A stretch of DNA of 64,000 nucleotides from Butyribacter intestini (GTDB taxonomy: Bacteria > Bacillota > Clostridia > Lachnospirales > Lachnospiraceae), in contig LLKB01000001.1 of the NCBI GenBank assembly GCA_001414325.1, positions 1,183,699 through 1,247,698 of the forward strand, given 5' to 3'. Every line of letters starts with the position of its first letter. Position 1 is the stretch's first letter. A program made the position numbers and the translations under genes. Under the pieces are notes generated by a model. That model ran no database searches. It was not told where the DNA came from and saw only the letters and a program-made list of their open reading frames with translations. Positions 11,047 through 21,290 of this stretch are shown here, in pieces.

Positions 11047-11468
11047 CTGATCATCCATTTTCTTTTTTTAAAAATAACCAGTGACACAATCAGCCTGAAT
11101 ATTTCTTCTGTTGTAAGTAACATATACACACCTGCAATCCCCCACTTGAATACATATGCAGCAATCAGACACAACAACTGCACCAACTAACCCTGCATAC
11201 ATAATCTTCTATTAAAGCTGCTCCAGACCTCTTTTGCATCCTCAGCTCCAATAAACTGTGCAATCAGTGTCCCTGCAACTGTACTTACCGTACCAATCAC
11301 CACTGAAAAAATCATAGAAAAATTACCGCATAATCCAACTGCTGATATATTAGTTTCCCCCATCTGTCCGATCATTATCTGATCGACAATTGAAAATGAT
11401 GCCTGCAGCATGCTTTGCAATGTAACAGGAATTGCTATTCCACATAATGTTTTCATAAACTTTGACAT
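11047..11468 (-). pseudogene. MATE-family exporter, internally deleted
   Basis: The first ~85 codons encode a MATE N-terminus (TLCGIAIPVTLQSMLQASFS, then IDQIMIGQMG-like residues). The frame then breaks, and from about 11190 down to 11047 another frame encodes a MATE C-terminus (AAYVFKWGIAGVYMLLTTEE). The central ~300 residues are missing, so this is a deletion derivative and cannot make a working transporter. An intact but different MATE gene lies just upstream. Confidence 0.8.
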
Positions 11469-11597: not shown

Positions 11598-12941
11598 TTA
11601 TTGGGAGATTTCCACTTTATCAGTCGGCCATGAGTTTCTAAGAGCTACATAGGATATTAAAAAATTCGCAAACCAACCGGCCGGTACAGCAAGCCAGACA
11701 AAAGCAATACCAAAACGCGGTGCAAAAATCAATGCAACTGACAGGCGGATTGCCAGGTTTACCATGTTTGCAATAAGGAATGGCCGCATGATTCCAAGAC
11801 CTCGAAGAACTCCATCAGTTGCCATTTTAATCCCCATAAAAATGAAAAAATATCCAAGCCATCTCATATAATCCCCGGATACCTGATATGCCAGAGCTGT
11901 TCCATCTTTACCAAGAAACAGCGAGGAAATTTGCGTGTGCATCGTTTCAATGACGATGAAAGCAATGGCTGCAAAGCACATATCCAATATTAATGCAGCT
12001 TTGTAGCCTTTTTTGATTCGCCGTGGTTTGTTTGCACCAAGGTTTTGGGAAACATACGGCGAAACTGCATTGCCGATTGATACGAAAATCAGAGAAAAAA
12101 CATTCTCTACCCGCATCGTCGCCGCATAACCCGCAAGTGCCTGTGTACCAAAAGGATTTACAACTGCCTGTACAATCATCATACCAATAGACACTGTAGA
12201 CTGCTGGAGCACTGACGGAACAGCTATTCTAAACATAGAATGAAGCTCGCACCAATCAAATAGTTGAAAGTTACTCTCATATTGCCGCATCCGATTCAAA
12301 AAAAGTAAAAGAGATAATACGGCGGAAATGCCCTGTGCAATCAAAGTTGCAAGTGCCGCACCGAACACGCCAAGCCTCAGACCTGCTACCATCCAAAGAT
12401 CCATAATGATATTTAAGATAGACGAAAATATCAGGAGTCCTAACGGAATTTTTGATTCGCCTATGGAATTGAACATCGTTGAAAGGATATTGTACATAAA
12501 CAAAAACGGAAATCCCACAAAATAAACCCGCAAATACAACACTGCATCATCCAGTATATCAGCAGGGGTTTGTAATGCCCTCATCATCGGGTTTGAAAAG
12601 CAAAAGCCAAAAACACCAAGAACTATACTTAGAATCAAAAAACTAAGTAAGGATGTTGACACGACTGTTTTCATTTTTCCGTACTCTCCGGCACCGAAAT
12701 AGCGGCTCACAAACACACCGGCACCAACACCTCCCCCCAATGCCACGCAAATAAATACATTTGTCAGTGCCGCACATGCACCGATAGCCGCAAGTGCTGA
12801 GGAGCCCACAAACCTGCCGACGATAACTGAGTCAGCCATATTATATATTTGCTGAAAAAAGCTGCCAAGAATCATCGGCAGTGCAAAAACCGTCAGTGCT
12901 TTAAGAGGCACATCTGTGATTAAATACTCATCTTTTGACAT
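11598..12941 (-). CDS. MATE family multidrug/Na+ (or H+) exporter
   Basis: A 447-residue protein with about twelve membrane helices in two repeats. The N-terminal half carries the MATE signature LPMILGSFFQQIYNMADSVI and VGRFVGSSALAAIG. It would export cationic drugs or metabolites using an ion gradient; the substrate cannot be told from sequence. Its start overlaps the stop of a short decayed frame (TAATG), and GGAGG lies 9 bases before the ATG. It lies beside a broken relative at 11047, which suggests local loss and gain of exporters. Confidence 0.92.
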   Translation of the reverse strand: MSKDEYLITDVPLKALTVFALPMILGSFFQQIYNMADSVIVGRFVGSSALAAIGACAALTNVFICVALGGGVGAGVFVSRYFGAGEYGKMKTVVSTSLLSFLILSIVLGVFGFCFSNPMMRALQTPADILDDAVLYLRVYFVGFPFLFMYNILSTMFNSIGESKIPLGLLIFSSILNIIMDLWMVAGLRLGVFGAALATLIAQGISAVLSLLLFLNRMRQYESNFQLFDWCELHSMFRIAVPSVLQQSTVSIGMMIVQAVVNPFGTQALAGYAATMRVENVFSLIFVSIGNAVSPYVSQNLGANKPRRIKKGYKAALILDMCFAAIAFIVIETMHTQISSLFLGKDGTALAYQVSGDYMRWLGYFFIFMGIKMATDGVLRGLGIMRPFLIANMVNLAIRLSVALIFAPRFGIAFVWLAVPAGWFANFLISYVALRNSWPTDKVEISQ

Positions 12942-13036: not shown

Positions 13037-13190
13037 TTAGTTCTTTACACATATTTTTCTCCATAAAGTCATATTGTCCTGGCAAAAAATTATTGCATTA
13101 AACAAGCTCCACTAACCACCTAGCCACACTATTATCATTATCTTAAATTACCATATGATAAAGTTTCTCTTTTGCAAAATACAAAATCTT

Positions 13191-13333
13191 TTATATCTTC
13201 TCTAAATCCAGAATTGAAACATAATGCAATATTTCAAATTTTTCCGCAGTGATTGCATATATTTCCAATGTTCCTGTCTCCAAATCAAGTACATTTTGCT
13301 TAAAGACACTTTTGCTAATTTTGCATAAAAAAT
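13191..13333 (-). pseudogene. Deleted relic of a SAM-dependent methyltransferase (relative of the gene at 18081)
   Basis: The DNA aligns with two separated parts of the methyltransferase gene at 18081-18872. The FYAKLAELSLG...NVLDLGTG region is joined directly to the EHWKYMQSL...ILDLEKI terminus. The junction falls in the shared bases CAGGAAC, which occur at both places in the intact gene, so a deletion between short direct repeats explains it. About 190 codons are lost. Confidence 0.75.
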
Positions 13334-14156: not shown

Positions 14157-14256
14157 TCTCTTTACCTCCAAAAATCGAAAGTTGTCAGCACCTGGTAAAA
14201 ACATAGCAACCTATATCCAATCCTCGACGCTTAGCAATTTTATAATCTTTCTTAAA

Positions 14257-14419
14257 CTAGTGTACTGACCTGTTGATATTTTGCCAAATAACTTGTATAA
14301 ATTCCCATCTGCTTCGTTGTCATCAATCGCCGTAGCCCGCTACGGCTCATTCTTCCGTCTTGCAGACTGAAAATTTATCCTAAGTTATTTAACTAAAAGT
14401 CATCAGGTCAGTACACTAG
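14257..14419. mobile_element. MITE-like element with CTAGTGTACTGACCTG inverted ends
   Basis: A 163-bp non-coding element bounded by perfect 16-bp inverted repeats. The homology of the two arms continues imperfectly inward for most of the length and ends in a central hairpin (CCGTAGCCCGCTACGG). No target duplication is evident. It lies in the gap upstream of the PfkB kinase. Confidence 0.8.
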
Positions 14420-14444
14420 GTTATATTTTTAATCTCATACTTTA

Positions 14445-14534
14445 TCATTTATCAAAATCTGCAAAGAGTTCATCCACATCACGATAACCTTTAACATTAG
14501 GATTCTTTGCAAACTTTTTAATAATTTCACTTTT
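14445..14534 (-). pseudogene. C-terminal remnant of a RelB/DinJ-like antitoxin
   Basis: Roughly 30 codons on the minus strand encode a terminus containing NPNVKGYRDVDELFADFDK and a stop. This resembles the toxin-binding tail of RelB/DinJ-type antitoxins. A stop codon closes the frame upstream and no toxin gene follows, so this is a fragment. The assignment rests on a short pattern. Confidence 0.45.
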
Positions 14535-14562
14535 TTATTTCTTTGTATTCCTCACTAAATCC

Positions 14563-14603
14563 CTATTTGTGATATGGTTCACCGTAACGCCATTTCGGAT
14601 TTT
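14563..14603 (-). other. att-like copy A of the rlmH 3' end
   Basis: On the minus strand this reads codons NPKWRYGEPYHK followed by a stop. The last 21 bases (GGTGAACCATATCACAAATAG) match the final 21 bases of rlmH (20811-20831) at 18 positions. The preceding ~20 bases match copy B at 19271-19290 and not rlmH. It marks the far boundary of the island. Confidence 0.65.
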
Positions 14604-14831
14604 CATTTTTCAGTGGTATTAGGAAAATTTGTACATTGATAATTACAATACTCAAGCTGCAATTTGTACCTACTTTTTAACATCTATTATGTAGTCTATA
14701 CTTTTATACAACACCACTGAGTTAAGTTGTCTTATACCACCCTTTTGTTATGCATGTTCACAAACAATGCTCCAACATTCAAAATCAAACGATACAAATA
14801 TTTTAGGTTTTGCCATATCCAATTCTCCATT
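14604..14831. other. Non-coding end of the island, AT-rich
   Basis: About 230 bp between att-like copy A and the restriction gene. The first ~70 bases resemble the flank of copy B (shared AAAATTT...CATTGA...ATTACA pattern), consistent with both being ends of the same element type. No gene was recognised. Confidence 0.45.
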
Positions 14832-15752
14832 CTATCTCGGTCCCATAAACCTGTCCCCATTCAAATGTATCATATGCTCCGGCATTTCAGCAATCCAGAC
14901 TTCTGTCTCCCATGCAAGTTCCTCTGCAAACTTTTTATATGTCTTAAAGTCTAAAAATGCTGTTACAAATATCTTTCCAGCCGTAACATCTTTGGTCATT
15001 TCTTCAATTTCCAATATGCGCTTCGGATCCATCGGACCGACTGATGTTACCGATTCCACAAAATAAATCCAGTCCTTATCTTCCCTGTACAGCACAACAT
15101 CCGGCATCTTATCATGTAGTGTAATTTCAAAACCCAACTCTTTCAGCTTTTCTACATTCTTTACCAGATTTTTTTCTATTGTATCTCCAACATATAGGCA
15201 TTCAGAATTTGGAGCGAATCTCGGTGCGAATTCCTCAATAATAGCTTTTTGCAGTTCATTATGCTTACCTGTAGAGAATTTAAAACTTTCACCATTTATA
15301 TTTACCGGCATCATTGTCATCTTCTTTTTAGAAGCATACAAATCAATTAACTTCTCATGGTAGCAAAGAAATCGTTTTATATATTCCTTCCACTTTGGAG
15401 TTCCCATAGTTCTTAGTATTTGCACTGTTTCTTCTGTCAATCTGTACCGATAATTCGGGCTATTAGTTGCTTTTCCATTATCCTCTATCAAAGCAGCGGT
15501 CCGAAATCTATGCAGCGCCTGTTTTCTAAATGTCTCTCTGCTGTTTTCCGCATAGCCCATGTCATAAAATGTATTGACAAACTGAATAATATCATGAATA
15601 CGAATCCATTCATTTGTTGCTTCACTCCATGACATATCTGGTTTTACTCCTGCCATTGCCAGTATCACATAACAACATATATCCGCTTGCTGTGCCTTAG
15701 GCATACCTATTGTTTTCAGAAATTCCCTTGTTTTTTCTATCTTATTATCCAC
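14832..15752 (-). CDS. Type II restriction endonuclease, BsuBI/PstI family
   Basis: A 306-residue enzyme of the BsuBI/PstI family, whose founding members cut CTGCAG; the same target is inferred here but not proven. The N-terminal half is helical and possibly DNA-binding. The C-terminal half contains the nuclease region MPDVVLYREDKDWIYFVESV, with acidic residues fitting a PD-(D/E)XK-like site, and ends MIHLNGDRFMGPR as in the family. The start overlaps the end of the methyltransferase gene by 8 bases, so host protection is translated first. The pair lies between the two att-like copies of the rlmH end, as expected for cargo of a mobile cassette. Confidence 0.9.
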   Translation of the reverse strand: MDNKIEKTREFLKTIGMPKAQQADICCYVILAMAGVKPDMSWSEATNEWIRIHDIIQFVNTFYDMGYAENSRETFRKQALHRFRTAALIEDNGKATNSPNYRYRLTEETVQILRTMGTPKWKEYIKRFLCYHEKLIDLYASKKKMTMMPVNINGESFKFSTGKHNELQKAIIEEFAPRFAPNSECLYVGDTIEKNLVKNVEKLKELGFEITLHDKMPDVVLYREDKDWIYFVESVTSVGPMDPKRILEIEEMTKDVTAGKIFVTAFLDFKTYKKFAEELAWETEVWIAEMPEHMIHLNGDRFMGPR

Positions 15753-17232
15753 AGTACCCCTCCAATATCAAATTGCAATTTGCCTCTGAATAGTCTCTAC
15801 TTTTAAGCACTTTTCTTCCCATTTCCTGAATATCTTCTAAATCCGGCACAGGCATTGCATTGATCTCTGTTGAATTAACCTGCGTAGATCCGTTCAAAAT
15901 GCGATAATATTCATCGTAAAGCGTTGAATTAAACAATACATACAACCCATACACCAGGCATTCTGACATTTCCGTTAATACACCATCCACAAAATTAATT
16001 TTGTTCTGCGTACTTATCTTTTTATATTGTGGAAATCTTTTTGCCAGGTACACTCCACACTGTAATCTTCGAGGTTCTTCCTTTGCCGTAAATCGTTTCA
16101 CAAACAGATAATTCTTGTTATCCTGCATCAATCCCTTTTGTTCTGTCACCACATATTCATGTTCTTTCTGTATTGGGAACTCTACCTTTCCCTGTTTTAT
16201 ATGTTGCGAATAAAATAAAGGAATCGCTCCTTCTTCTTCCTCGTCCCGCAGAATTTCACGATTACGGAAATCCACCGTTAACCCTGTTTTCATTTTTACT
16301 CCAATTGCAGGCAACGTTTTATCAAATTTATGAAGTTTTCTCAAAACCTCTACTTCGTTTTCATCTGTCACAAGATAAACATAATAATCCTCACCAGCTA
16401 CAACCAAATCATACGGGACTGTCAATGAAGTAATTTCGCCAAAGTCACTATTTGATTGCGAAGATGTAATGGTAACAGTTTCTGGCGTTTTAACCGTTTT
16501 TCTCACCTTAATAATAATCGTTTCCTGCAATACACTCTCTTTGTCAAATACCTTACTACGGCTAACAAAAAGATGAATATGTTCCAGTTTACCTGCTGTC
16601 AGGAAATACTCTCTAAAGCGTTTAAAATATGCTCCGGATGTCCATGATCGAGGAATAATATATACCATTTCCCCATCCTCACATAAATTAAACAGTCCCA
16701 TAGAAGCAAAAATAAAATACAAATTCGGTGCCCCGTAGCATACCTCCGGCATTGCTGTTGCTTCTGGAGCATCTTTAGGGATTTTCATATATGGTGGATT
16801 GCCAATTACAAAATCATATTTCCTAGGGTTATCATTTCCGCCTATCATATGATTAAAATCAAGATACTGACTAAGGATATAATTGTATTCAATTATATTA
16901 ATGACTATCTTTTTTCCAGATTTTTCCTTGCAGTATTCCAAATTTCGCTTTAACAATGGTAATACGTTATTATCATTCTCATAACAGGTAAGTTCAATTT
17001 TCTGAATGGAATCTATCATTTCCAATCTTTCAATAAAGGCACATGATAATATGCCTGAACCTGCTCCTGCATCGAGTACGCTTACCTTACTCTTCTTTTC
17101 ATCAATATTATATAAGCCAGCCATAAAACGGGCAGTCTCCATACTTGTAAAAAACTGTCCATACTTTTTACGCTCTTTCTTCGGCATACTTTCTACATAT
17201 TCGTTTGTAAGCTCTATAATTTTTTCCAGCAT
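15745..17232 (-). CDS. Type II adenine-N6 DNA methyltransferase (BsuBI/PstI type)
   Basis: A 495-residue SAM-dependent DNA methyltransferase partnered with the downstream endonuclease. SAM motif I is VLDAGAGSG at residues 52-60, and the catalytic motif IV is NPPY at 145-148, the form typical of adenine-N6 enzymes. The KYGQFFTS start and a C-terminal target-recognition region are also seen. Length agrees with the known M.BsuBI and M.PstI enzymes (about 500). A good promoter (TTCACA - 17 bp - TATAAT, 17267-17295) lies 35 bp upstream, so the pair is an independent transcription unit. It would methylate the A of CTGCAG if specificity follows the family. Confidence 0.93.
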   Translation of the reverse strand: MLEKIIELTNEYVESMPKKERKKYGQFFTSMETARFMAGLYNIDEKKSKVSVLDAGAGSGILSCAFIERLEMIDSIQKIELTCYENDNNVLPLLKRNLEYCKEKSGKKIVINIIEYNYILSQYLDFNHMIGGNDNPRKYDFVIGNPPYMKIPKDAPEATAMPEVCYGAPNLYFIFASMGLFNLCEDGEMVYIIPRSWTSGAYFKRFREYFLTAGKLEHIHLFVSRSKVFDKESVLQETIIIKVRKTVKTPETVTITSSQSNSDFGEITSLTVPYDLVVAGEDYYVYLVTDENEVEVLRKLHKFDKTLPAIGVKMKTGLTVDFRNREILRDEEEEGAIPLFYSQHIKQGKVEFPIQKEHEYVVTEQKGLMQDNKNYLFVKRFTAKEEPRRLQCGVYLAKRFPQYKKISTQNKINFVDGVLTEMSECLVYGLYVLFNSTLYDEYYRILNGSTQVNSTEINAMPVPDLEDIQEMGRKVLKSRDYSEANCNLILEGYCG

Positions 17233-17266
17233 ATTCCACCTACCTACAAGCCTTTTATTTCTTGCT

Positions 17267-17295
17267 ATTATACTATAACTCAGCCCTGTTGTGAA
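17267..17295 (-). promoter_or_regulatory. Promoter of the restriction-modification pair
   Basis: On the minus strand TTCACA (17290-17295) and a perfect TATAAT (17267-17272) are separated by 17 bp, about 35 bp before the methyltransferase ATG. Confidence 0.75.
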
Positions 17296-17396
17296 CTACC
17301 AATTGTCTTAAGCCAATGGGCTTCCTGCTTCATCGACCTCGTAACCTATTATCTCCACAGGCGTTAATTTGGGCAGTCCCTGCCCTATATATTTCT

Positions 17397-17966
17397 TTAT
17401 GCTATTTGTCTTAATCCTTCTGTCAGTATATTTTTCTCAGCATTGATATTCCTGTCATGTTCTGCTCCGCATTTCGGACATATACATGTCCTCACTGACA
17501 AATCTTTTGTATCTGGATTCTGATACCCGCAAACAGAACATAATTGACTACTAGCATAAAATGTATCTATTTTGATGTATTTCCTGCCATTCCATTTTGC
17601 CTTATACTCTAACTGTCTTGTCAGCTCATACCATGATACATCACTTATGGCTTTTGCCAGATGATGATTTTTTACCATGTTTTTTATCTGTAAATTCTCT
17701 GAAACTATCACTTGGTTTTCGCTGATAATCTCATGTGAAACTTTATGTAGATAATCTTTTCTTATATTCCTTATTTTCTCATGGCATAATGCTATCTTTT
17801 TCTTTGTTTTATAATAGTTCTTACTTCTCTTTCCTTTATGTGACAGTTGCCTTTGTAGCTTTACAAGCTGTTTCTCGTATTTTTTTATAATTTTTAGATT
17901 CTCATATACCTTTCCATCGGAAGTAATACATAAATCTTTAATTCCTAAATCGGGACTTGACAGCCT
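17397..17966 (-). pseudogene. IS200/IS605-type TnpB, C-terminal half
   Basis: An open frame of ~190 codons with no valid start encodes the C-terminal half of a TnpB RNA-guided nuclease. It begins at the first RuvC motif (DLGIKDLCI), has the second acidic motif VIVSENLQI, a zinc ribbon (CSVCGY ... CPKCG) and the last motif HDRNINAEKN, and ends normally. The N-terminal ~180 residues are gone: the sequence before 17951 is unrelated and closed by a TAG. A GTG at 17711 could start a shorter product but would lack the first RuvC aspartate. It lies directly upstream of the RM promoter. Confidence 0.85.
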
Positions 17967-18080
17967 CTACTTTCGCAATCATTTCCTTCTACAAAGGAAT
18001 CAACACAATTTTTACATCCAATTCTTTTTTAACTTTTTTCGCTGTTGCATACAATCAAATTTTTCTTTTTGCACAACCTT

Positions 18081-18872
18081 TTATATTTTTTCCAAATCCA
18101 AAATAGAAACATAATGCAAAATATCAAATTCTTCCGGCAGTGATTGCATATATTTCCAATGTTCCTGCTCCCATTTCTGAATCTCACTTTCCTTCAGTCC
18201 ACTCGCTCCAATTCCTCGACAAGCTTTCATCCTTCCATGCCATGCTTCTCTTGTAAAATGTACTGGCAAATCATATGTTAGCATATTTGCAGCCTTAAAC
18301 ATGCCTTCGCACCAAGGTGGCTCCTGCAATTCATATCTTGTCATTCTTCCACCAGTCCATGCAGGATTATATTTCAAAACAAGATTTTCGCTTGTTTTGG
18401 CAATCTCACTCTCTTCTGGTAGCCATGCCATAAATAAAATTGAAAAATGACCATAATCCTTTAAAATATGATGAAGTTTAGGCAAAACAACCGATTTATC
18501 AAAATACATAAAACATTGACACGCTGTAACCACATCAAATGTTCTGTCTGGAAAATCAATCTCTTCTGCTGATGCAACAATATAATCAATGTCCATCCCT
18601 GCGCTTTTGCTGAGTTTCCCCGCATATAAAATTTGATTTTCTGAGATATCTGCCCCTGTCCATTTTGCTCCGTAGGAATACATATTTCTTGGAATCACAC
18701 CCGTTCCTGTTCCTAAATCCAGTACATTTTGTCCCTTTACTCCTAACGATAATTCCGCTAGTTTTGCATAAAATTCTTTAGGATAAATATCACGGTACTT
18801 TGCATAGTCTTCAGAAGTTTTTCCCCAGTCAAATGCTTTCCCATGATCAATATTCTTATTGATTATTTCCAT
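18081..18872 (-). CDS. Class I SAM-dependent methyltransferase
   Basis: A 263-residue small-molecule methyltransferase of the UbiE/Methyltransf_11-like type. Motif I is VLDLGTGTG near residue 50, followed by TGADISENQI (SAM-binding acidic loop) and VVTACQCFMYF as motif IV. The substrate cannot be deduced. A GGGAGG site lies 9 bases before the ATG, and a promoter candidate lies in the 190-bp repeat at 19060-19249. A deleted relic of a close relative lies at 13191, so this gene has been duplicated or moved locally. It shares the island segment with the RM genes and the TnpB remnant. Confidence 0.88.
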   Translation of the reverse strand: MEIINKNIDHGKAFDWGKTSEDYAKYRDIYPKEFYAKLAELSLGVKGQNVLDLGTGTGVIPRNMYSYGAKWTGADISENQILYAGKLSKSAGMDIDYIVASAEEIDFPDRTFDVVTACQCFMYFDKSVVLPKLHHILKDYGHFSILFMAWLPEESEIAKTSENLVLKYNPAWTGGRMTRYELQEPPWCEGMFKAANMLTYDLPVHFTREAWHGRMKACRGIGASGLKESEIQKWEQEHWKYMQSLPEEFDILHYVSILDLEKI

Positions 18873-19059
18873 GATATTTGGCCTCCCATGTAAAACCTAA
18901 CTTTGCTGTAACATTTTAATTTTATTATACTCAACCACTCTCTTCTACTGCAATATATTTATGGTTAATATCTCTTACAGCCAGTAAGGAATTATCCATC
19001 TTGTTACTTATACTATATAATAATAGAATAACCGAATATCTTCTCTCTTCCACAAATCT

Positions 19060-19249
19060 GATTTGTACATATTCTATCACACATTCATCTTTCCCACAAT
19101 CACTTATCTTTCACTCCTCCACTAAGGAAACTAATCTTCGGACACTATATCTTGTCCTTTCCACTCTCTTATCAAACACCATCTGGTATAACACAGATTA
19201 CTTTTCTCAATGCACCTTTAAAATTTACCTATAAACAGATGCATCCCCC
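19060..19249 (-). repeat. 190-bp direct repeat R, copy 1 (with promoter)
   Basis: It matches 20422-20611 over its full 190 bp with scattered mismatches (roughly 85% by eye), in the same orientation. Read on the minus strand it ends in a conserved promoter-like pair (TTGTGG - 17 bp - TAGAAT) pointing at the methyltransferase. Its high-coordinate end abuts att-like copy B exactly. Confidence 0.85.
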
Positions 19250-19290
19250 TTATTTATGGTATGGTTCACCGTAACGCCATTTCGGATTTT
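19250..19290 (-). other. att-like copy B of the rlmH 3' end
   Basis: It reads NPKWRYGEPYHK and a stop on the minus strand. The last 21 bases (GGTGAACCATACCATAAATAA) match the rlmH terminus at 18 of 21, and the 20 bases before them equal those of copy A. It separates the methyltransferase/RM segment from the nitrilase segment. Confidence 0.7.
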
Positions 19291-19380
19291 TGTTCCTCAG
19301 CATAATCAGATGCTTTTACATCTAGTGAGGTTTGATTCCTCAATGTGATTTGTTATAGCTTAGCTTTGTAGGGCAATAAT

Positions 19381-19415
19381 CCTCAATGGAATCAAGAAAA
19401 TTTTGTCCATTGAGG
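19381..19415. repeat. Perfect inverted repeat next to att-like copy B
   Basis: CCTCAATGGA and TCCATTGAGG form a 10-bp perfect inverted repeat with a 15-bp spacer, about 90 bp inside the boundary. A decayed version of the same motif lies beside copy A near 14611-14640. Confidence 0.65.
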
Positions 19416-19446
19416 ATTACATATACAAACTGGAATTTGAACCATT

Positions 19447-20301
19447 TTATATATGATTCCTCTCTGATATTATACCATACACTTCTGGGCGTCGATTTTT
19501 GCACCCCCATACCTCACGATGACGATACTCTCGCAACATATCTACATCCAATTCAGCCACATATACACCCTCTCCCTCGCCAGCTTCAAATACACATGTA
19601 TCTCGCGAGTCAGGAAGCTCTGGAAGATATACGACACCATCGAACAGGGTAGAATGTCCATTGCAATCCGGATGAGGGGCCGGATAATTGCATGTGGCTA
19701 TAGCTAACATATTTTCATATGCTCTTCCCCTGAGTTGTGCGAGACGGTTCAGTTCCATTGGACAGGCATTTGGAACTAGAAGTAGCTCCGCTCCTTTCAA
19801 CATCATAACTCGAGCACTTTCCGGAAATTCCCGGTCATAGCAAATCATTGATCCGACTTTTATAACTCCTTCTTTCGTATCCAATTCTGTCACAAAGAAA
19901 TCATCTCCTGCATCCAGAACACTTTCATCATCTTCTTCCCCAAAATTACAAATATGGACTTTTGAATAACAATATTGTATTTTGCCATGTCTGTCGAAAA
20001 AGCAAACTGTATTTCTCGGTTTCGGCTCATGTTGCTCCAAAAAAGTGATAGCTATAGCCATATCCAACTCTGCAGCAAGTTCTGCAAACCTTTTCACAAA
20101 AGAGCCATACCTAGGAATGGCACATTCCCGTAGGCTTGCCTCTTCATGTGAAAAGACGTATCCGCAGCTCCACATTTCTGGAAAAATTGCAATATCTGCC
20201 CCCTTTTCTTTTGCCTGAAAACAAGCCTTGATTCCCTTTTCCATATTTCCTTTCAGACTTCCTGTTGGAAGAAGCTGTAATAATGCAATTGTAAGTTTCA
20301 T
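19447..20301 (-). CDS. Carbon-nitrogen hydrolase (nitrilase superfamily)
   Basis: A 284-residue nitrilase-superfamily amidase that would hydrolyse a C-N bond of an amide or carbamoyl compound; the substrate is unknown. The Glu-Lys-Cys triad is visible as FPEMW (E42), YSKVHICNFGE (K114) and MICYDREFPE (C154). The start is the ATG at 20301, five bases after GGAGG; the ATG at 20313 is itself part of that ribosome site. It is the only gene in the segment between rlmH and att-like copy B, and it has repeat R with its promoter-like bases ~120 bp upstream. Confidence 0.9.
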   Translation of the reverse strand: MKLTIALLQLLPTGSLKGNMEKGIKACFQAKEKGADIAIFPEMWSCGYVFSHEEASLRECAIPRYGSFVKRFAELAAELDMAIAITFLEQHEPKPRNTVCFFDRHGKIQYCYSKVHICNFGEEDDESVLDAGDDFFVTELDTKEGVIKVGSMICYDREFPESARVMMLKGAELLLVPNACPMELNRLAQLRGRAYENMLAIATCNYPAPHPDCNGHSTLFDGVVYLPELPDSRDTCVFEAGEGEGVYVAELDVDMLREYRHREVWGCKNRRPEVYGIISERNHI

Positions 20302-20382
20302 ATATTCCTCCATATCATTGTAGAAACCAACTCAATGCTCTGCAAATTACGATTTGTTAAGTTTTCTTCAATTTCCATCGGA

Positions 20383-20419
20383 CAAGAAGCATCCCTCGCT
20401 CTAAAGAGCTCGGTCAATT
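20383..20419. repeat. Dispersed 37-bp repeat (copy 1)
   Basis: Begins CAAGAAGCATCCCTCGCT and continues to AGCTCGGTC..ATT; it matches 63367-63403 at about 33 of 37 positions. It lies immediately before repeat R copy 2. Confidence 0.7.
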
Positions 20420-20421
20420 CC

Positions 20422-20611
20422 GATTTGTACATATTCTATCATACATTTATCTTTCCAACAATCACTTATTTTTCACCTATCCACTGAGGAAACTAATCTT
20501 CAGACACTGTATCTTGTCATTCCCACTCTCTCATCATACATCATCTGATATAACACAGATTACTTTCCTCAATGCACTTTCAAAATCTCCCTATAAACAG
20601 ATGCAATCCCT
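20422..20611 (-). repeat. 190-bp direct repeat R, copy 2 (with promoter)
   Basis: Partner of 19060-19249 in the same orientation. The conserved promoter-like pair here is TTGTTG - 17 bp - TAGAAT, directed at the nitrilase gene. Confidence 0.85.
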
Positions 20612-20740
20612 CACCAGAAACAACCACATCACAAGTAATCACTTATCCTCACTTGCGTCAATCCCATCAAAACGTATATCAGCTATTACATTTTTCAGCA
20701 AACCCCCGTTTCACACCCATTTACAGCCACATTCCTGTAA

Positions 20741-20776
20741 AAAAATTGGAAGAGTAACCAAATCAGCCACTCTTCC
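20741..20776 (-). terminator. Terminator downstream of rlmH
   Basis: On the minus strand GGAAGAGT / ACTCTTCC (8 bp, 13-nt loop) is followed by AATTTTTTT, about 35 bp past the rlmH stop. Confidence 0.75.
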
Positions 20777-20810
20777 TTATGCTTTCTATATCTTTGAAGT
20801 TTTAATTTTC

Positions 20811-21290
20811 TCATTTGTGGTATGGTTCCCCTGCATTTATCCTATATGCCCTGTATATCTGCTCCAGCAGAACCACCCTCATGAGCTGATGCGGAAATGT
20901 CATTTTTGAAAAACTCAGCAATTCGTTTGATTTTTTTAGTATATCTTTATCTATCCCTATTGAGCCGCCTATTATAAAAATAATATGACTTACCCCGTTT
21001 ATCCCAAGCTTGTCTATCTTGTCCGCAAATTCCTCTGATGAATATTGTTTTCCCTGTATGGCAAGTGAGATAACATATGCCCCGTCTTTTATGTATTTTG
21101 TGAGTCTTTCCCCTTCTTTTGCCCTTATTATATCTTCCTCATGCTCACTGGCATTATCCGGTGTCTTTTCATCTGCAACCTCTATTATTTCCAGTTTGCA
21201 ATACCTGCCAAGCCGCTTTTTATATTCATCTATTGCCATTGTAAAGTATTTTTCTTTTATCTTTCCTACCGTCAGAAGTGTTATTTTCAT
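20811..21290 (-). CDS. rlmH: 23S rRNA pseudouridine-1915 N3-methyltransferase RlmH
   Basis: RlmH is the SPOUT methyltransferase that modifies pseudouridine 1915 in helix 69 of assembled 70S ribosomes. The 159-residue product opens MKITLLTVGKIKEKYF, has the SAM-binding IIFIIGGSIGID knot segment and SFSKMTFPHQLMRVVLLEQI, and ends RAYRINAGEPYHK. The 3' end of rlmH is the known integration site of staphylococcal SCC elements. Here the same 21 terminal bases recur twice downstream, while rlmH itself is intact. It follows mazF with a ~24 bp gap on the same strand. Confidence 0.97.
   Translation of the reverse strand: MKITLLTVGKIKEKYFTMAIDEYKKRLGRYCKLEIIEVADEKTPDNASEHEEDIIRAKEGERLTKYIKDGAYVISLAIQGKQYSSEEFADKIDKLGINGVSHIIFIIGGSIGIDKDILKKSNELLSFSKMTFPHQLMRVVLLEQIYRAYRINAGEPYHK

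Follow-up and report, generated by a model that had tools for sequence, protein, structure and literature searches.

Worn cassettes of a probable SCC-like family at the 3' end of rlmH in Butyribacter intestini

The closest described systems include the staphylococcal cassette chromosome (SCC), known chiefly as a vehicle of methicillin resistance, and integron cassettes, which are small, mostly co-oriented tandem units with few genes and toxin-antitoxin cargo, most of them without a recombinase. The locus described here lies behind rlmH in a 64,000-nt stretch of the Butyribacter intestini genome (contig LLKB01000001.1; the whole stretch is hereafter called the window). The genome consists of 12 contigs and is 99.64% complete. 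Positions 14563-20610 of the window are interpreted, with a probability of roughly 0.78, as a pair of worn cassettes that are non-autonomous and belong to an SCC-like family inserting at the 3' end of rlmH. Tandem SCC-like rlmH cassettes, non-autonomous or decayed, had been proposed in an earlier sequence-only reading of the window, and the proposal is supported by recurring units, blocks shared between species, dyads over a set of units, and CcrB-like large serine recombinases (LSRs).

According to the excerpted text of PMC6222049, the Enterococcus cassette chromosome (ECC) uses the rlmH site, and its attL and attR attachment sites (att) are ~50-bp dyads with inverted repeats; 16/32 ECCs had more than one attR site, circularisation was detected by PCR, and complete ECCs were defined by ccrABEnt. 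The excerpted text of PMC10061031 describes SCC-like islands of Bacillota with PolA-SSB pairs, most of them behind rlmH, with LSRs, tandem composites and restriction-modification (RM) genes, the second ends of which were located by the last ~12 bp of rlmH. Islands of SCC type downstream of rlmH are already published for Bacillota. No description of rlmH-associated arrays of tiny, recombinase-less cassettes in clostridia was found in the open-licence literature.

Tail copies and cassettes in the window

The features of the locus, in the direction of rlmH, are as follows.

20811..21290, minus strand: rlmH, from the open reading frame (ORF) list and RlmH relatives; its last codons (20811-20831) presumably form the attachment site
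20748..20776, minus strand: terminator-like hairpin just 3' of rlmH, before cassette 1
20415..20610, minus strand: R2, conserved start of cassette 1, 87-88% identical to R1
19447..20313, minus strand: carbon-nitrogen hydrolase of the nitrilase family, cargo of cassette 1 (PF00795, E 2e-36)
19250..19300, minus strand: copy B, an rlmH-tail copy with left arm; end of cassette 1 and start of cassette 2
19053..19248, minus strand: R1 (196 bp), conserved start of cassette 2, abutting copy B
18081..18872, minus strand: class I S-adenosylmethionine-dependent methyltransferase, cargo of cassette 2 (profile match)
17397..17711, minus strand: TnpB-like remnant, TNB domain only (PF07282, E 5.5e-23)
15745..17232, minus strand: Eco57I-type adenine methyltransferase (profile match)
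14832..15752, minus strand: BsuBI/PstI-type restriction endonuclease (PF06616, E 1.7e-61)
14563..14613, minus strand: copy A, an rlmH-tail copy with left arm; end of cassette 2

The RlmH protein ends in NAGEPYHK, with the gene end at 20811. The last 21 bases of rlmH recur on the same strand in copy B (at 19250, 18/21) and copy A (at 14563, 17/21); the sequence-only reading had given 18/21 for both, so that the orientation and the value for copy B stand and the value for copy A is one lower. These tail repeats are confirmed as real. A degenerate KWRYGEPYHK pattern with up to three mismatches was matched in the window at copies A and B only, with 0.00 matches expected by chance, and chance repeats were set aside, since 0/100 shuffles gave a match. 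Over the whole genome, up to two mismatches gave five matches: only rlmH and copies B and A had zero mismatches, and the other two had two each. The idea that the tail motif is the terminus of another gene family was set aside after a pattern survey of 397 genomes of the family: NPKWRYGEPYHK, which had been considered as a possible C-terminus of a common gene family, was matched with up to two mismatches in the window's genome only and with three mismatches in G339 and G152 (genomes are denoted by G and loci by L).

The sequence upstream of copies A and B is common to both (53 nt, 87% identical) and is not rlmH-like, as had been noted beforehand for ~20 bases. Remnants of a local rlmH duplication, that is, pseudogene ends arisen without site-specific recombination, would also adjoin rlmH and lie in its direction, and unequal crossing over between repeats can enlarge arrays. 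Against such an origin, rlmH and its tail copies have ~24 bases in common and no more, the preceding sequence resembles its counterpart rather than rlmH, and tail-bearing blocks of other species are 89-96% identical between genomes in which rlmH is more diverged. A duplication origin is thus considered highly improbable.

R1 and R2 are homologous up to within a few bases of copy B, which abuts R1; the repeat and this junction agree with the earlier reading. The two cassettes accordingly have homologous starts (R) and ends (the 53-bp sequence) and unrelated contents. Family matches bore out the previous gene calls (nitrilase, methyltransferase, TnpB remnant and RM pair), and the type II RM pair of cassette 2 is composed of the Eco57I methylase and the BsuBI/PstI endonuclease. 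The promoter scan gave no signal, with 6 promoter-like sites found and a shuffle value of 7.5.

Tail-bounded units in related genomes

In total, 101 rlmH loci were scanned on both strands (19 relatives, a further 80 named ones, one duplicate of these, and the window). Besides the window, eight extra tail copies were found in six rlmH loci, all downstream and on the strand of rlmH; this number is a lower bound because many rlmH loci have little downstream sequence. A survey of the order with up to one mismatch to the tail pattern gave matches in 66/392 genomes, native rlmH tails included, and a survey of the family with zero mismatches gave 17/397 genomes, at least three of which (G055, G379 and G309) matched at rlmH's own tail. 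From 34 loci with at least two tails, 32 yielded 51 tail-bounded units; L195 and L199 yielded none since their tails are too close together, and a few units in L147, L183 and L188 may be spurious because boundaries with up to two mismatches were allowed.

The units have a median length of 1,724 bp, with 45/51 between 0.4 and 5.0 kb, and 39/51 carry one or two ORFs with a length of ≥100 aa. Among the units with such an ORF, 43/50 are wholly in the direction of rlmH, versus 31/76 array-free stretches behind rlmH, a contrast that is overstated because the control stretches, at 4 kb, are longer than most units. In G590, rlmH is followed by four units carrying a phosphotransferase-family gene, GNAT, YaaA, and a putative two-component pair read from the sequence. 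The cargo of other units includes DUF4160 with a small partner, DUF3990 with a partner, RelB with YoeB, a TIR gene and, by inspection, a putative SIR2-like gene. One unit of L187 seems, also by inspection, to carry putative riboflavin genes.

Among this cargo, toxin-antitoxin blocks are shared between species at identities above those of rlmH. L051 belongs to Clostridium sp. Marseille-P3244 and L043 to Ruminococcus turbiniformis. Between L051 and L156 (rlmH 79.5%), the DUF3990 unit has 89.1% identity over its full length of 1,150 bp; the identity is 91.7% over 1,056 bp between L051 and L192 (rlmH 75.3%) and 92.0% over 1,049 bp between L156 and L192 (rlmH 73.2%). A relative in L013 reaches only 73-76%, close to the 63-69% found for its rlmH. 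For the DUF4160 block, taken together with the tail downstream of it, the identity is 96.1% over 743 bp between L043 and L051 (rlmH 76.7%), 93.2% over 731 bp between L051 and L153 (rlmH 61.8%), and 92.8% over 720 bp between L043 and L153 (rlmH 60.0%). The homology of the shared blocks stops at the tail or at most ~50 bp past it.

Dyad symmetry was scored in a circle configuration, in which excision would bring the left arm of a unit together with the right arm at its upstream boundary, as complementarity over 10 arm positions. With the axis at GA of GGNGARCC, the 51 units gave 5.59/10 compared to 4.11 in shuffles (z 7.4, 0/2000), and z lay between -2.8 and 3.6 in the eight shifted registers; with six related units left out (45 remaining), z was 6.4 in the GA register. 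The clearest cases, given as circle and in-place scores, were L151 (10 and 6), L156 (10 and 6), L197 (9 and 2), L189 (9 and 4) and L144 (8 and 2). The arms of one and the same copy paired in place at 4.88/10 (z 4.9), which is compatible with terminators or with conserved arm types. The palindromes could be transcription terminators around a tail motif kept for termination and not for recombination; many right arms lead into T-stretches, and the above-shuffle pairing within a copy also speaks for this. However, the stronger pairing with the arm of the upstream boundary would be needless for a terminator in place, and the motif is bound to the rlmH tail and is adjoined by CcrB-like recombinases, which makes termination as the sole function quite improbable.

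The window contains no PF00239 (serine recombinase/resolvase) or PF00589 (tyrosine recombinase) match in the profile search, in agreement with the earlier statement that no recombinase is present; the nearest PF00589 match in the genome is at C1:1286955, at a distance of ~82 kb from rlmH. The genome has 10 PF07508 matches, and the 8 of them that were listed all lie outside the window. A recombinase accompanying such cassettes, as that reading had envisaged, was found in the genomes of relatives. LSRs adjoin tails or rlmH in G216, G197, G339, G513 and G030, and among the NCBIfam models they match CcrB and CcrC best, with scores under the curated threshold; LSR fragments lie inside several arrays, e.g., L147, L155 and L158. 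Over 66 genomes, the CcrB model gave six LSRs at 308-441 bits, with the next best at 220; one of the six (G030) is located at the end of rlmH and the other five (G197, G216, G513, G339 and G322) are 0.2-7 kb away from a tail copy, the G322 gene having an internal stop. Ten other LSRs (G000, G003, G010 and G740) scored 85-204 bits. LSRs above 300 bits occurred in 6/32 genomes with tail copies versus 0/34 without them (Fisher p 0.01). In L198 (G216), a 9.2-kb unit carries an LSR (387 bits on CcrB) between rlmH and a tail copy.

The RlmH proteins of Bifidobacterium (L038, L041, L045, L048, L052, L059-L062, L069, L074 and L088) are 62-70% identical to that of the window, which suggests, at the level of protein similarity, that rlmH has passed from one phylum to another. 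The Bifidobacterium rlmH loci scanned showed no additional tail copies.

Cassette insertion at rlmH: mechanism, objections and decay

According to the proposed mechanism, a CcrB-like LSR, acting in trans or since lost, would exchange strands at GA of GGNGARCC and thereby join the rlmH tail to a circular cassette at its dyad att site. Insertion would rebuild the rlmH tail on one side and leave a tail copy at the far end, and later circles could enter any tail, which would lead to tandem stacking, mostly in the direction of rlmH. From these patterns we infer the position of the crossover, an action of the recombinase on tail sites, mobilisation in trans, and movement of the window's own cassettes by this route before their decay.

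A number of observations weigh against this interpretation. In the window, cassette 1 has no clean junction: the end of rlmH and R2 are separated by 200 bp, as recorded earlier, including the terminator-like hairpin, and no decayed tail was seen beside R2 when the alignment was inspected by eye. The window's cassettes do not show the circle dyad, with circle scores of 4/10 and 3/10 (null mean 4.07) and in-place scores of 3 and 6. Over the set, the circle dyad is present at 7/10 or more in 20/51 units only (13/51 in place, versus 11% in the null), terminators may contribute to the dyad signal, and poor units occur, with circle and in-place scores of 1 and 2 in L143 and 3 and 0 in L040, and a circle score of 1 in three of the four units of L188. 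The best CcrB score in the window's genome is 204 bits (C1:658205, not near rlmH), and 26/32 genomes with tail copies lack a CcrB-like gene above 300 bits. Tail arrays occur without rlmH in the fetched stretches of L143 (G511), L186 and L187 (G304); these may be secondary sites or translocated arrays. In L016 (congener G023), a relative of the window's methyltransferase (14520-15305, 73% identity) lies ~1.6 kb behind rlmH with no recognisable tail copy. The comparison with empty sites suggested by the sequence-only reading gave no empty site in a search of one genome per species. Finally, the DUF4160 homology of L043 and L051 begins within the unit and not at the upstream tail, so this pair represents a shared block and not a whole-unit transfer.

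The last observation also fits an ordinary insertion hot spot filled by homologous recombination through tails, R and flanks, with a serine-recombinase event at the origin only, an explanation that overlaps with the SCC-like interpretation. Homologous exchange could take place through R and the 53-bp ends, and the window's genome has no CcrB-like gene. On the other hand, many other units have little in common apart from the short core, and the arms of individual units match above shuffles; the hot spot is therefore judged unlikely as the main explanation.

Further cassettes with the end sequence of the window, for which a search had been envisaged, were not found beyond the window's genome among 61 genomes, R and the left end being confined to it, apart from a 22-base match in G025. 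The kinase, Zn-peptidase and MATE genes, used as flank markers, had few or no matches beside rlmH in relatives. Two remnants lie beyond copy A.

14445..14534, minus strand: 29-residue C-terminal remnant (reading frame only)
13152..13281, minus strand: second, partial copy of the end of the methyltransferase gene (82% DNA identity)

The 29-residue frame resembles the C-terminus of a RelB/DinJ antitoxin, to which it may correspond, and is possibly the rest of a third cassette. Judging by these remnants, the sequence suggests that the island formerly extended past copy A and was longer. The array of the window is interpreted as being in decay and has possibly lost a cassette adjacent to rlmH.

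Two other features were observed on this side. Just past copy A (14253-14423), 42-nt inverted repeats (83% complementary) flank 87 nt and resemble a miniature inverted-repeat transposable element. A MATE fragment (11187-11468) lies beside a longer MATE-like ORF (11598-12941) and is apparently a truncated second copy.

A broader proposal is that rlmH is a clostridial capture platform for small cassettes, a serine-recombinase counterpart of the integron with att dyads split at the centre, mobilisation in trans by rare CcrB-like cassettes, and interspecies spread of toxin-antitoxin and defence genes. It is put forward tentatively, with the odds leaning against it. If true, clostridial anaerobes would gain an integron-like route of gene capture, and if tiny SCC-like cassettes stack behind rlmH in many clostridia, this would be a possible route for packaging single genes into SCC-like elements. 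Circle junctions can be predicted directly, and in testable form, from the paired arms, and the units that carry an LSR are a source of candidate enzymes.

Comparison with known systems

The likeness to SCC and SCCmec, mobilised by CcrA/CcrB or CcrC, comprises insertion at the rlmH 3' end, a tail repeat at the far end, dyad att sites (here over the unit set), tandem composites and RM cargo (SCC features partly from general knowledge and partly from the excerpted PMC10061031 and PMC6222049), and CcrB and CcrC are the nearest models of the tail-adjacent LSRs. In the window, insertion at the rlmH 3' end with a far-end tail is found, with the reservation of the gap between rlmH and R2; an LSR of CcrB type between rlmH and a tail copy is found in the L198 unit. 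In contrast to SCC, the window has no serine-recombinase match and thus no ccr gene, which places it outside SCC proper; elsewhere most units are far smaller elements within the 0.4-5.0 kb range given above, and the LSRs, at up to 441 bits, score far under the NCBI cut-off of 900 for CcrB. Working like SCC is a description of the unit set, which looks like an SCC-type system reduced to integron-like mini-cassettes, and not of the window, which is a worn example.

With ECC, as far as the excerpts of PMC6222049 describe it, the arrays have in common the rlmH site and att sites with inverted repeats; they differ in that ECCs are defined by ccrABEnt, whereas most arrays here lack a CcrB-like gene. 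The PolA-SSB islands, in the excerpts of PMC10061031, are similar in their LSRs, second ends at rlmH tails, tandem composites and RM genes; they were selected for polymerase-SSB pairs together with a helicase and a recombinase, and those excerpts describe no one-gene arrays.

Integrons are approached in the small, mostly co-oriented tandem units, the toxin-antitoxin cargo, and the mostly recombinase-less cassettes. No IntI-type tyrosine recombinase was found by the array, the nearest PF00589 match being the one ~82 kb away. The rlmH arrays differ from integrons in their association with a serine recombinase, in the rlmH platform itself, and in a dyad whose halves, divided at the centre, lie in adjacent cassettes.

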